A DNA stretch of 38,695 bases from a virus, in the IMG/VR virus record IMGVR_UViG_3300049855_000212, positions 1 through 38,695 of that record. The stretch is one strand, 5' to 3'. The notes beneath the pieces were generated by a model. It searched no databases, was not told where the DNA came from, and worked only from the letters and a program-made list of their open reading frames with translations. This document shows, piece after piece, positions 1-38,695 of the stretch. The number at the start of each line of letters is the position of its first letter. Within the stretch, counting starts at the first letter, position 1. Both the position numbers and the translations under genes were made by a program.

Positions 1-125
1 ACAAGTTGGCCCGCATTGCCAGTGGCAATCCTGAACACATCGATCATTGGGATGACATTGCAGGATACGCCACTCTGGCAGCCAACTACTTGAGGGAGAA
101 GCAAAATGCAGCCGAACGCATCTGA
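1..125 (+). CDS. DUF6378-like protein, 3' part only (complete copy at 38404-38673)
   Basis: The reading frame open at base 1 is the C-terminal part of the 89-residue protein encoded at 38404-38673 and ends with TGA at 123-125. It is cut by the start of the window, not broken. On the circular molecule it is the last gene before the thymidylate-synthase-like gene, which it overlaps by 20 bases. Confidence 0.85.
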   Translation, partial: KLARIASGNPEHIDHWDDIAGYATLAANYLREKQNAAERI

Positions 126-147
126 GGCCTGGCTTAACTGCGTAGAA
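1..147. repeat. Left copy of the 147-bp terminal overlap (circular assembly)
   Basis: This stretch is repeated at 38549-38695 with one difference: G at 127 here, A at 38675 there. The overlap interrupts a gene that is whole at the right end, so it looks like the join of a circular assembly or the product of a circularly permuted genome rather than a functional direct terminal repeat. The mismatch changes codon 8 of the thymidylate-synthase-like gene (Ala here, Thr there). It suggests either population variation in the sampled DNA or a base error near the contig end. Confidence 0.9.
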
Positions 148-888
148 GATGTCCTGACTGAAGGCAGTTTGCAGTCTTCACGCAATGGAGGCTGCAAGGA
201 GCTGATCAATCATTCTATGTGCTTTGACATGCGGTTTCCGTTCGTAACGGTACGAGAACGAAACATCAACTTCAAGTATGTCGCAGCCGAGAGTCATTGG
301 ACCATTATGGGCTCTAATCGACTGGATTTCAATCCATCTCTGCAGAAGACCCTGATCAAGTGGTCCGATACGGGCAATCATCTGGCCGGCGGCTACGGTC
401 CCGCGTTCTGTCTCCAGCTACCCTATTTGGTATCCCTCCTCAGGAAGAGACCAGATACCCGACAGGCCGTGTGCTCTATCTGGGAACGCAATCCACACTT
501 CGAGAACGACATGCCGTGCATGCTGTCCCTGCAATTTCTTGTGCGTGACGGTAAGCTTCACACGGTTGTCAACATGCGATCGTCTGACGTCTGGCTTGGT
601 CTGCCTAATGACATGACTGTGTTCGCTATGATGGCCGCATGCGTCACTATCGAGGTAGGCAAAAGGTGGCCACTTGGCGTGTGCTACATCAATGCTGGTA
701 GCAGGCACGTATATGATGACAACTATGATAGCTGTTATCGCGTGACGACCTTCCCAGGTTACTCAGACACGCCAGCCTTTGAACCTGAGAAGATGAACTT
801 GGCCCAGTTTATTCTCTATCTTTCTCAGGCCGCGAATGCCGAGAGTCGTGCAGATGCAATGGAGAAACTGACGGGAGTTAGGCCATGA
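106..888 (+). CDS. Thymidylate synthase family enzyme, possibly dCMP-specific
   Basis: This 260-residue protein has the thymidylate synthase fold signature. Glu62 falls in the equivalent of the TS ELLWFL motif. GGYGPAF (95-101) holds the TS tyrosine. PDTRQAV (116-122) is followed by MPC with the catalytic cysteine at 138, then NMRSSDVWLGLPND (156-169) and SRHVYDDNY (199-207) with the His and Tyr of TS. In thymidylate synthases the LPFN motif ends in an Asn that selects dUMP. Here the aligned residue is Asp169, as in T4 dCMP hydroxymethylase, so the substrate may be dCMP. That is inference from one residue. The family would transfer a one-carbon unit from methylene-tetrahydrofolate to C5 of a pyrimidine nucleotide. 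The start follows a GAGGGAG ribosome site. The neighbour is dCMP deaminase, overlapping by ATGA. Confidence 0.85.
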   Translation: MQPNASEAWLNCVEDVLTEGSLQSSRNGGCKELINHSMCFDMRFPFVTVRERNINFKYVAAESHWTIMGSNRLDFNPSLQKTLIKWSDTGNHLAGGYGPAFCLQLPYLVSLLRKRPDTRQAVCSIWERNPHFENDMPCMLSLQFLVRDGKLHTVVNMRSSDVWLGLPNDMTVFAMMAACVTIEVGKRWPLGVCYINAGSRHVYDDNYDSCYRVTTFPGYSDTPAFEPEKMNLAQFILYLSQAANAESRADAMEKLTGVRP

Positions 889-1235
889 GACCTACAATAC
901 ATGAGACTATGCTGAAGATCGCATTCGCCCTGTCCGAACGTGGGACATGCGCGAAGAAACAAGTCGGCTGTGTTATCGTGGATAAATATGGCAACATTCT
1001 GAGTTCAGGTTACAATGGACAACCGAGGGGTGCAGAACACTGCGCCCCCGTCACGCCGTGTCCGGCGTATCTCGATGCCAATCTCAGCTGCCAAGCAATC
1101 CATGCCGAAGTTAATGCCTTGATGCGTTGTCCTGATCCTGAGAAGGCACGTGTTATTTATATTACTGAGGCTCCGTGCCAAAAGTGTTCCATGCTCATTG
1201 CCAACACGGCTATTAAACATGTGATAACGCCATGA
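885..1235 (+). CDS. dCMP deaminase
   Basis: This 116-residue zinc-dependent cytidine/deoxycytidylate deaminase converts dCMP to dUMP. The zinc and catalytic residues are visible: HAEVNAL with His73 and the proton-shuttling Glu75, and PCQKC with Cys98 and Cys101. An N-terminal block with the CAKKQVGCVIVD pattern and the GYNGQPRGAEHC loop are typical of phage and eukaryotic dCMP deaminases. It is short for the family: the chain stops just after the helix carrying the second cysteine pair and lacks the usual last strand. It starts at an ATGA overlap with the TS-like gene and ends in an ATGA overlap with the polymerase. Together with the TS-like enzyme it manages the dCMP/dUMP pool for replication. 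Confidence 0.88.
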   Translation: MRPTIHETMLKIAFALSERGTCAKKQVGCVIVDKYGNILSSGYNGQPRGAEHCAPVTPCPAYLDANLSCQAIHAEVNALMRCPDPEKARVIYITEAPCQKCSMLIANTAIKHVITP

Positions 1236-3124
1236 CCCAATGGACCTGTCCTACGTCATTGCCATCCATTCCTCAGGGTGCGACAGTCGCTCTAGACACC
1301 GAGACTCACTCGGTAGACCTGAAGAAGCTGGGTCCACAATTCCAACATGGTCCCGATCACATTATCGGGGTCTGCATAGCCTTTGAGGGCTATTCTGAGT
1401 ACCTTCCGATTGCACATGCATCGGGAAACTGTGATTTGCCAGTAATTGATTGGCTGAAGGAACAGGTCTTGAGAGAGGACCTTACGTTTGTATTCGCCAA
1501 TGCGAAATTTGACTTAGCTGCATTCGCCAGAGAAGGGGTCTGGTTTGATCAAACGAAAGTGGTCGATATTCAGGTGACTGATTCGCTCATCAACGAGAAC
1601 GAGGAGTCTTTCAGTCTTGCAAGCATAGCAAAGCGAAGGGGTCTGGGTAAAAAGTCCAATGCTGAAATGGAGCAATGGATGATTATCAAGGGTTTGATTG
1701 TTCGAGGAGGTGCCGATTACTCACGGCTGAAAGAAGTCCCTCCGCACATAGTGGCGCCATATGGCATCGGTGACGCTGAGCTCACTTTGGCCATTCACAG
1801 TGCACAATTGGCTGATATCGACAGGGACGAGCTGCAGCAGGTCGCAACTCTTGAGAGCCGATTGATCCCCATCCTATTTCGCATGGGTCACAAAGGCATT
1901 CGAGTCAATGTAGGTTTGGCCGAAGAACTCAATGAACAATTGGGCATGTCCTCGATGGATCTGTTTGACAGCATCGACGGCGCTTCTGCTGTTGATCCAT
2001 TTTCAAGCAATAGTCTTTCCACATGGGTGCGAAGTCACGGCTTCACGCCGCCCGAGACTGTCAAGGGCAACGACTCGATTTCTAATGATTGGATGTTAGC
2101 GTCCGGCAACGATGAGCTGATTAAGATGGCTCAGTACAGGCAAGCTGAGAAAATCCGCCGAGATTTTATCCAATCAATGATACTCGAGGGGTCTCACAAA
2201 GGGCGACTACATCCCCAGTGGTTCCAAACCCGAGGTTCGTCCTTCATGTCTGGTGGCGACACCAATGGTACCAAGTCCGGCAGGTTAGCTTGCACAAACC
2301 CAAATCTCCAGCAGATACCCTCTCGTCATCCAGTCTATGGACCTATGGTCCGCGGGTTGTTCTTGCCTGAGGAAGGCGAGCTGTTTAATAAGAACGACTA
2401 CAACTCCCAGGAAATACGTGTTGGTGTTCACTACGCCGCCGTGCTCGGACTCGAGGGCGCCGCAGACATTCGTAGAGCGTATCAAGACAACCCTTTGCTC
2501 GACTATCACTCTATGGTCATGGAAATGATTAATGCGGTGATTTCCACGCCAGTCACACGTACAACTGCCAAGACTACCAACCTGTCGCTAGCCTACGGCA
2601 TGGGCAAACGCAAGCTGGCCGAGCGCCTTAACATGTCCTCTTCTCAGGTCGAGGCATTTCTGAGTGTCTATCATAGGGAAATTCCCTTCGTTAAACAAGC
2701 CTTGGACAAGGTCATGCGGGTAGCTGATTCCCGTGGATATGTAAAGACTATTCTGGGCCGACGGCGCCATTTCGACGAATGGGAGAATGCTAACTGGGGA
2801 TCGCCCTGGGTCCGTCCTGAGAAGGATCGTACTACGGCTTTGCTCAAGTTCGGGAAGATCAAGCGGGCAAACACTTACAAGGCTTACAATTCGGTTATTC
2901 AAGGCACATCGGCCGAGATGACCAAGGTGGCTATTGTGAATTCGGTTGACGCTGGGCTATGGCCCATGTTGACGGTCCACGATGAGCTCTGCTATTCTGT
3001 GTCTTCTGTTGAAGAAGCTCGCCGGGCTAAGAAGATCATGGAAGAGGCAATTGAACTGAGCGTCCCAGTAATAGCCGACGGAACAGTAGGAAAGACCTGG
3101 GCTGACAAAGGAGAGAAACTGTGA
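1232..3124 (+). CDS. Family A DNA polymerase with 3'-5' exonuclease
   Basis: This 630-residue replicative polymerase is of the Pol I type without a 5' nuclease domain, like T7 gp5. The N-terminal proofreading exonuclease has LDTET (Asp22, Glu24), FANAKFD (Asn90, Asp94) and YGIGD (Tyr177, Asp181). The polymerase half has SGRLACTNPNLQQIPSR (349-365), motif A NDYNSQEIRVG (Asp389, Glu394), motif B from Arg443 through Lys447 to Tyr455, and motif C VHDE (582-585). At the site matching E. coli Phe762 it has Leu451. In published surveys of viral PolA, Leu at this site marks a separate class from the Phe and Tyr enzymes. The start overlaps the deaminase by ATGA, and the stop overlaps the ligase by GTGA. 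Confidence 0.95.
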   Translation: MTQWTCPTSLPSIPQGATVALDTETHSVDLKKLGPQFQHGPDHIIGVCIAFEGYSEYLPIAHASGNCDLPVIDWLKEQVLREDLTFVFANAKFDLAAFAREGVWFDQTKVVDIQVTDSLINENEESFSLASIAKRRGLGKKSNAEMEQWMIIKGLIVRGGADYSRLKEVPPHIVAPYGIGDAELTLAIHSAQLADIDRDELQQVATLESRLIPILFRMGHKGIRVNVGLAEELNEQLGMSSMDLFDSIDGASAVDPFSSNSLSTWVRSHGFTPPETVKGNDSISNDWMLASGNDELIKMAQYRQAEKIRRDFIQSMILEGSHKGRLHPQWFQTRGSSFMSGGDTNGTKSGRLACTNPNLQQIPSRHPVYGPMVRGLFLPEEGELFNKNDYNSQEIRVGVHYAAVLGLEGAADIRRAYQDNPLLDYHSMVMEMINAVISTPVTRTTAKTTNLSLAYGMGKRKLAERLNMSSSQVEAFLSVYHREIPFVKQALDKVMRVADSRGYVKTILGRRRHFDEWENANWGSPWVRPEKDRTTALLKFGKIKRANTYKAYNSVIQGTSAEMTKVAIVNSVDAGLWPMLTVHDELCYSVSSVEEARRAKKIMEEAIELSVPVIADGTVGKTWADKGEKL

Positions 3125-4073: not shown

Positions 4074-4469
4074 ATGAACGAGTCGCTGTTATACAGAAAA
4101 CTGGAACCTTGGTTCAAACAAGGCGGCTTACCCATCCGCATAGAGAACGCTATAGGTTCTGGTATGCCCGACATCCTCGTCCTGAGGAAAGGGCGGGCAA
4201 TATTTGTGGAGCTCAAGATTCAACATTCGGGCAAGATCCATATGCCCAAATTTCAATGGTCCTTCGGACGCAGGATCATGCGCTACTACGATGCGAGCCT
4301 CCACTGGGTTTGCGTCTGGGATGGCACCATAAAAGCCTGCACCTTTTCTCAGGTAGCATTGGCACCCAACACAGCGGCTAATGACGTTGTGACTGTCGAC
4401 GTGAGTAGAGTTGAGTTCAGATCCCTAAAAACCAAACACGAACTGGAGGTACTACTCGATGGAAGATAA
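4074..4469 (+). CDS. VRR-NUC domain nuclease (PD-(D/E)xK superfamily)
   Basis: This 131-residue protein carries the compact VRR-NUC fold. GSGMPDILVL has Asp33, IFVELKIQ has Glu46 and Lys48, and Gln61 follows in a PKFQWSF segment, matching the conserved glutamine of the family. Phage members are thought to act as structure-specific or Holliday-junction-type nucleases in recombination or in removing branches before packaging. No Shine-Dalgarno sequence is evident, and the promoter predicts a start at or next to the ATG. It is followed, with an 11-base overlap, by a coiled-coil protein. The context (SSB-like and SNF2 helicase genes) fits DNA repair or recombination. Confidence 0.85.
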   Translation: MNESLLYRKLEPWFKQGGLPIRIENAIGSGMPDILVLRKGRAIFVELKIQHSGKIHMPKFQWSFGRRIMRYYDASLHWVCVWDGTIKACTFSQVALAPNTAANDVVTVDVSRVEFRSLKTKHELEVLLDGR

Positions 4470-37867: not shown

Positions 37868-38036
37868 AATGCGCAATGCCATCGAGGAAATGTTCCCCGG
37901 CACCAAGGAGAACATCGCCGCCCGCCGATGCCCTCTGTGCAAGGACGTCATCACCGGCTTCCGTGATGCTCTCAGCAAGAGGGAGTACGAAATCTCCGGC
38001 ATGTGCCAGAACTGCCAGGACGAGGTGTTCAAATGA
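37836..38036 (+). CDS. Conserved phage zinc-finger-like protein
   Basis: The frame encodes EMRNAIEEMFPGTKENIAAR, CPLC, FRDALSKREYEISGMCQNCQ. The two CxxC pairs (RRCPLC and MCQNC) around an EISG block resemble a small phage protein family of unknown function. Start at 37836 has GAGAGG eight bases upstream and a 32-base overlap with the previous gene; a GTG at 37785 or an ATG at 37848 are alternatives. The stop overlaps the MazG-like start by ATGA. Confidence 0.72.
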   Translation: MKNPMSNKTPEMRNAIEEMFPGTKENIAARRCPLCKDVITGFRDALSKREYEISGMCQNCQDEVFK

Positions 38037-38407
38037 GCGAAGATTTGTTCGGAATGGTCGCAGAGTTTCAAGAAAAGTTTGGGCTCGAGTATGATGGTCC
38101 ACCCAGATATCTCGTACTTGAGGAGTGGGATTTGAAGAGGATGCATATACGAGAGGAGTATCATGAACTCTGTGATGCTACGACTCTCGAAGAAGAATTC
38201 GATGCGCTGATCGATCTTGTGTACGTCGCACTCGGCATGGCGTACAGGATGGGCCTGCCATTCAACGAGGGCTTCAGGCGAGTTCATGCTGCGAACATGG
38301 CTAAGGTCAGGGCTTCTTCCTCAGGTGAATCGAAGCGTAACTCAACGTTGGATATAATCAAGCCGGCGGGGTGGGTGCCAGCTAACTTGGAGGATTTGGT
38401 GAAATGA
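38033..38407 (+). CDS. MazG-like nucleotide pyrophosphohydrolase
   Basis: This 124-residue protein has the all-alpha NTP-PPase metal site: EEYHE (Glu41, Glu42, Glu45) and EEFDALIDLVY (Glu54, Asp57, Asp61), then MAYRMGLPFNEGFRRVHAAN and KPAGWVPANLE, typical of phage members that hydrolyse (d)NTPs or ppGpp-type substrates. It may lower host dNTP or alarmone levels or adjust the pool for replication, in line with the neighbouring dCMP deaminase and TS-like genes. ATG 38033 is chosen because of the ATGA overlap. Confidence 0.82.
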   Translation: MSEDLFGMVAEFQEKFGLEYDGPPRYLVLEEWDLKRMHIREEYHELCDATTLEEEFDALIDLVYVALGMAYRMGLPFNEGFRRVHAANMAKVRASSSGESKRNSTLDIIKPAGWVPANLEDLVK

Positions 38408-38673
38408 TCGAACAGGTATTGGAGGAACGCAAGAAGACTCATGGTGATTTCAAGGATCATGCAAGGATCAGTCAAGGCCTGAAGAGCACTATCCTCAGTG
38501 AGACAAGCCTAGATGTTGTGTTGACTGAGGCGATCGAAATGATCTGTCACAAGTTGGCCCGCATTGCCAGTGGCAATCCTGAACACATCGATCATTGGGA
38601 TGACATTGCAGGATACGCCACTCTGGCAGCCAACTACTTGAGGGAGAAGCAAAATGCAGCCGAACGCATCTGA
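38404..38673 (+). CDS. DUF6378-like phage protein
   Basis: The 89-residue protein has ILEER-type start (MIEQVLEERKKTHGDFKDHA), RISQGLKSTI, TEAIEMICHKLARIASGNPE and HIDHWDDIAGYATLAANYL. This matches the DUF6378 family, common in phages beside MazG-like and nucleotide metabolism genes. The conserved His/Glu/Asp set in a helical fold makes a MazG-like metal-dependent activity possible, but it is untested. It overlaps the MazG-like gene by ATGA; its 3' part is repeated at 1-125. Confidence 0.85.
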   Translation: MIEQVLEERKKTHGDFKDHARISQGLKSTILSETSLDVVLTEAIEMICHKLARIASGNPEHIDHWDDIAGYATLAANYLREKQNAAERI

Positions 38674-38695
38674 GACCTGGCTTAACTGCGTAGAA
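38549..38695. repeat. Right copy of the 147-bp terminal overlap
   Basis: Identical to 1-147 except A at 38675 (G at 127). It contains the end of the DUF6378-like gene and the first 14 codons of the TS-like gene, here with Thr at codon 8. When the genome is treated as a circle one copy should be removed. Confidence 0.9.

Follow-up and report, generated by a model that had tools for sequence, protein, structure and literature searches.

The window analysed here is the whole 38,695-bp stretch of DNA of an IMG/VR record of an uncultivated bacterial virus. Its ends overlap: they share a direct repeat of 147 bp that differs at a single position, and the genome is therefore probably complete or circularly assembled. 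Due to this repeat, the genes at 38003-38673 lie directly upstream of a thymidylate synthase (TS)-like gene. The resulting order is nucleotide pyrophosphohydrolase (NTP-PPase, PF01503), DUF6378 protein, TS-like enzyme, dCMP deaminase and DNA polymerase A, with reading frames that overlap by a few bases:

1-147, plus strand: copy 1 of the 147-bp direct terminal repeat (other copy at 38549-38695)
106-888, plus strand: TS-family enzyme of 260 aa, predicted dCMP hydroxymethylase (Pfam, PHROG, alignments and structure model); further residues listed are Glu62, Tyr97, Arg119, Arg158, Ser159, His201 and Tyr203
508-510, plus strand: Asp135, at the site of T4 Asp145 (alignment)
517-519, plus strand: Cys138, nucleophile (alignment)
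520-522, plus strand: Met139, at the site of E. coli His147 (alignment)
885-1235, plus strand: dCMP deaminase of 116 aa with HAE and PCxxC zinc motifs (PF00383, E 2e-19; PHROG 174, E 3.1e-33)
1232-3124, plus strand: family A DNA polymerase with 3'-5' exonuclease (PF00476, E 1.7e-49)
38003-38407, plus strand: MazG/PRA-PH nucleotide pyrophosphohydrolase (PF01503, E 4.6e-11)
38404-38673, plus strand: DUF6378 protein (PF19905, E 7.2e-10)

The first-pass annotation had described a dCMP deaminase adjoining the TS-like gene as well as a MazG-like gene, and both were recovered, at 885-1235 and, as a PRA-PH/MazG-like protein, at 38003-38407. The repeat copies differ by G/A at position 127, so that residue 8 of the TS-like protein, Ala in copy 1, is Thr when read from the second copy; this is either a population variant or an assembly-end error.

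The product of the open reading frame at 106-888 matched Pfam Thymidylat_synt (PF00303, E 1.8e-20) and PHROG 160, thymidylate synthase (E 1e-36). The TS fold and the catalytic cysteine (Cys138) are present according to PF00303, the structure model and Foldseek, and the alignments show that the TS-type C-terminal tail, or lid, is missing. The segment MRSSDVWLGLPND of the product was aligned with QRSCDVFLGLPFN of E. coli TS. In phmmer comparisons with solved TS structures and in MAFFT alignments LGLPND lies over LGLPFN/LGVPFN, so that Asp169 (codon 610-612) corresponds to Asn177 of E. coli TS, Asn229 of L. casei TS and Asp179 of T4 dCMP hydroxymethylase. These alignments, including the comparison with gp42 and TS proposed earlier as a check, bear out the initial claim that Asp169 of the LPND motif occupies the site of the dUMP-selecting Asn. 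The enzyme reads D135-M-P-C138, with an Asp three residues ahead of the catalytic Cys.

Relatives of the enzyme are widespread, occurring in at least 595 IMG/VR stretches. The best-scoring 80 of these were fetched with search patterns that excluded column 177, and all 80 carry Asp at this column. Asp169 is also among 25 columns that are invariant in 57 relatives with 30-39% identity to the window enzyme, and Asp occurs at 177 in six relatives from the phages collection and in the cultured phages AXL3, PW916 and HTVC119P. Judged from these sequences, Asp169 is no chance substitution. The corresponding 80/80 count for Asp143 is partly circular, as this residue belonged to one of the two retrieval patterns. 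Neither the window protein nor SPO1 gp29 retrieved a match in single-sequence queries of viral_contigs, and no near-identical phage was found in the phages collection with 12.6 kb of the window.

Residues at positions 143, 147 and 177 were compared in 27 enzymes (window, reference and phage) and the 80 relatives. TS show Leu143/His147/Asn177, position 143 being Leu or Ile in TS-like enzymes, SPO1-like dUMP hydroxymethylases Asp143/Asn147/Asn177, and T4, AXL3 and the 80 relatives Asp143/Thr(Ser)147/Asp177. Xp12-type enzymes (AXL1 and eight loci) combine Asn143/Pro147/Asp177 with a TS-like tail. In the sample examined these three residues thus sort TS, dUMP and dCMP hydroxymethylases and putative Xp12-type methylases, which allows testable predictions of base modification from sequence. 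The window enzyme has Asp at 143 and 177 and Met at 147, in contrast to Thr or Ser in all 80 relatives. In the tree it groups with the enzymes of L015 and L020 (support 97) inside the Asp177/Asp143 clade, which is separated from the Xp12-type enzymes with a support of 100. Since these three contigs also have at least eight homologous genes in common around the cassette, they represent one lineage.

Asp at position 177 is the published determinant for dCMP, as in Asp179 of T4 (PMC6400193, PMC8670742), and TS mutants N229D/N177D switch to dCMP, as cited in PMC8670742. The AlphaFold model of the window enzyme (pLDDT 93.1, pTM 0.92) retrieved MilA at ranks 1-7 of a Foldseek search against PDB (TM 0.80), followed at rank 8 by L. 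casei TS N229D with dCMP. The CMP 5-hydroxymethylase MilA (PDB 5b6d) resembles the window enzyme in having Asp at both key positions, including the site of T4 Asp145, and a non-TS C-terminus. It differs in its Ala and Lys for ribose, whereas the window enzyme carries Ser159 and Arg119 at the sites of MilA residues 176 and 133, the combination defined as deoxyribose-preferring in the MilA study (PMC5175136). The clade-wide Asp at 177, Ser159/Arg119 and the best structural match to MilA support dCMP rather than dUMP as the substrate.

The name of the family could be taken literally, with an ordinary TS acting on dUMP and tolerating the Asp; the family models that match the enzyme are named thymidylate synthase, and most of the cultured relatives examined carry this annotation. 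However, the enzyme scores 67 bits against a curated NCBIfam TS cut-off of 327 bits, it has Asp177, Asp143 and no tail, and the mutants mentioned above change their substrate to dCMP. An ordinary TS (ThyA) is thus highly improbable and was rejected on the lack of Asn177, Leu143 and His147, the missing C-terminal lid and scores far under the cut-offs. SPO1 gp29, a dUMP hydroxymethylase, shares Asp143 and the missing TS tail but differs in Asn147, Asn177 and its substrate. The adjacent deaminase might instead convert a 5-substituted dCMP to 5-hydroxymethyl-dUMP or dTMP, in which case modified or ordinary thymine would be made via a cytosine route. The deaminase gene lies directly downstream of the TS-like gene and accompanies it in 70 of the 80 relatives, and the window contains no ThyX, no second TS-family gene and no kinase for 5-hydroxymethyl-dCMP. 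Against this stand the 5hmdU phages, which use dUMP hydroxymethylases with Asn177 (SPO1), the Xp12-type enzymes, which are accompanied by a deaminase too (8/8), the ThyX that AXL3 possesses for dTMP (PMC7504290) and the MetaGPA data tying Asp177 to modified cytosine in DNA (PMC8670742). This route is therefore improbable as well, although slightly less so than an ordinary TS.

More serious is the question of whether the methylene group is reduced, giving 5-methyl-dCMP for a 5mC genome as in the putative dCMP methylases of the Xp12 type. Dihydrofolate reductase (DHFR) recycles dihydrofolate after reductive methylation. DHFR was found near the TS-like gene in 6/8 Xp12-type loci versus 0/80 Asp143-type loci by iterative HMM (Fisher p 5e-8, shared ancestry ignored), and none was found in the window by this method, which was used instead of Pfam DHFR because the latter is insensitive on whole records (1/8 Xp12-type records). 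Like the window, the Xp12-type systems, for which AXL1 gp63 served as a proxy for Xp12 (MT664984), show Asp177, deaminase and NTP-PPase neighbours and a cassette without a kinase (0/8). Met147 occurs in the enzyme of Lynlen, which has a DHFR upstream and a TS tail, and the window enzyme resembles TS in having Trp at position 83. However, the window enzyme has Asp instead of Asn or Leu at 143, the window harbors neither a TS tail nor a DHFR, the Xp12-type enzymes have Asn143, Pro147, a TS-like tail and an adjacent DHFR gene and form the separate clade described above, and a hydroxymethylase is the best fold match. The water that yields the hydroxyl is activated in T4 by Asp145, which precedes Cys148 by three residues, and D145N forms no product (PMC6400193). 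Asp135 at this site, the missing tail, the missing DHFR and the tree position favor hydroxymethyl over methyl. A methylase is thus disfavored by Asp versus Asn at 143, the tail and the DHFR neighbor, and is unlikely. The first-pass annotation had left open whether 5-methyl- or 5-hydroxymethyl-dCMP is formed; dCMP as the substrate held, and the product is narrowed to the hydroxymethyl form. The TS-type tail is kept in Xp12-type, Lynlen and Aeromonas enzymes. In the Microbacterium phage Lynlen (L113:2534-3442) and the Aeromonas phage GomatiRiver_11 (L112:2498-3337), TS-like proteins annotated as thymidylate synthase show Asp177, Ile/Leu143, this tail and a nearby DHFR. From their sequences these are candidate dCMP methylases (5mC).

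The dCMP hydroxymethylase of T4 provides the reference for the preferred reading. Gp42 (PDB 1b5d, 6a9b) has equivalents of the Cys, Glu, Tyr, Asp179 and Asp145, lacks a TS tail and shares an Asn-Asp pair with the window enzyme (FRND in gp42, LPND in the window). It is very distant in sequence and differs at Ser94, where the window enzyme has Gly95, and at position 147 (Thr versus Met). The T4 Ser94-x-Tyr96 motif, with its Ser or Thr, is replaced by Gly95-Gly96-Tyr97. Ser94 belongs to the published hydroxymethylase signature, and about 25% of the activity is kept in the T4 mutant S94A. As Gly occupies this site in 80/80 relatives and Ala in the SPO1 hydroxymethylase, the Ser is not universal among hydroxymethylases. 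The window enzyme is therefore proposed to work like a dCMP hydroxymethylase, and not to be a strict member of the T4 type.

The enzymes of Stenotrophomonas phage AXL3 (gp28) and Pseudoxanthomonas phage PW916, annotated as thymidylate synthase/dUMP hydroxymethyltransferase, share 32-38% identity, Asp143, Asp177 and adjoining NTP-PPase and deaminase genes with the window. AXL3 differs in Thr147, a ThyX and the kinase and methyltransferase genes of its cassette. The commonest order (29/80 contigs) is methyltransferase, NTP-PPase, kinase, TS-like, deaminase and DNA polymerase, the last gene in the conserved order. It is complete in a Manatee Spring podovirus, whose NTP-PPase is 43.7% identical to the window pyrophosphohydrolase over 126 aa, and is matched by AXL3 up to the deaminase. 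Of the AXL3/Manatee-type order from NTP-PPase to DNA polymerase, the window has all genes but the kinase, whose slot holds DUF6378. The window deaminase stops a few residues past the PCxxC helix (116 aa versus 173 aa in AXL3 and 127 aa in L020), and its short C-terminus is shared with sister L020 (75% identity over 114 aa). A conserved SAM methyltransferase (Methyltransf_23) stands first in the cassette of most relatives (54/80), e.g. L003:2650-3474 and L004:2942-3838. No such gene was found in the window; the methyltransferase could modify the hydroxymethyl group or another base.

T4 encodes a kinase, which it needs for 5-hydroxymethyl-dCMP, as well as glucosyltransferases. No kinase homologue emerged when the window was searched with PF02223, PF21448, a family HMM and tblastn, in agreement with the first reading of the sequence; the sole match was to the P-loop of the primase-helicase (E 0.005). 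Kinase homologues were likewise not found in the records of L015, L020 and L034. DUF6378 occupies the kinase slot in the window, L015 (7676-8002) and L020 (7682-8008), and L034 has a homologue at the corresponding position (4197-4454). Among the cassettes, DUF6378 in this slot is limited to this sub-lineage, and relatives found elsewhere with the window copy as query showed no link to TS-like genes. The protein is predicted to form a four-helix fold without a match in PDB, and a MazG fold was rejected on this ground. Either the host supplies the kinase, or DUF6378 plays some part. Apart from Met147 and the absence of a kinase from this sub-lineage, nothing about the system is unusual. As a speculation of low probability, the window and L015/L020/L034 might represent a kinase-less cassette variant in which DUF6378 replaces or spares the modified-dCMP kinase, with Met147 of the window as a further change in specificity or chemistry.

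Gly95 at the site of T4 Ser94, Met147 and the lack of a kinase in the window speak against a dCMP hydroxymethylase. Nevertheless, the open reading frame at 106-888 probably encodes such an enzyme, with 5-hydroxymethyl-dCMP as the product. From homology, residue positions, cassette and fold we infer its substrate, its chemistry and the fate of its product. Cys138 would attack C6 of dCMP, Asp169 would read and protonate cytosine N3/N4, and methylene-tetrahydrofolate would donate a one-carbon unit to C5. Without a TS C-terminal lid, and with Asp135 able to activate water, the exocyclic methylene would be quenched by water and not reduced, yielding 5-hydroxymethyl-dCMP and tetrahydrofolate. The neighboring pyrophosphohydrolase probably lowers dCTP and supplies dCMP, the deaminase may tune dCMP/dUMP, and a host kinase would raise the product to the triphosphate used by the family A polymerase of the phage. 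In the genome, 5hmC, either plain or with further decoration, would then guard against restriction.

Modified cytosine in DNA is indicated for related systems. Of 37 restriction enzymes, only two cut the DNA of AXL3, and their sites consist of A/T alone; the DNA resists nearly all enzymes with G/C in their sites (PMC7504290). Its authors assigned the cassette to dTMP synthesis, yet suspected altered nucleotides (PMC7504290). In MetaGPA, modified cytosine in the DNA of environmental phages was associated most strongly with TS-family genes, which co-occurred with PRA-PH and dCMP deaminase domains, and positions 177 and 147 were the most discriminating for modified-cytosine TS homologues (PMC8670742). 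By analogy with the AXL3 resistance and the MetaGPA association, the virion DNA of the window virus would contain modified cytosine, which probably blocks bacterial DNA-cutting defences. The link between Asp177 and modified cytosine is already published (MetaGPA, PMC8670742), and such enzymes are known from phage T4 and common in viral metagenomes. The prediction can be tested directly in AXL3, which is in culture and has the same cassette.

In line with the first-pass annotation, no glucosyltransferase family match was detected in the open reading frames scanned, the best match of T4 beta-GT having an E of 0.05. Carbamoyltransferase PF02543 was absent from 50 related records, a set outside which the window lies. 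In Xanthomonas phage Xp15 (L110:1-3820), a carbamoyltransferase gene precedes genes for a hydrolase, a further protein, a TS-like enzyme with Asp177 and Asp143, and a dCMP deaminase, in this order. This locus is a candidate source of the 5-carbamoyloxymethylcytosine described by MetaGPA.
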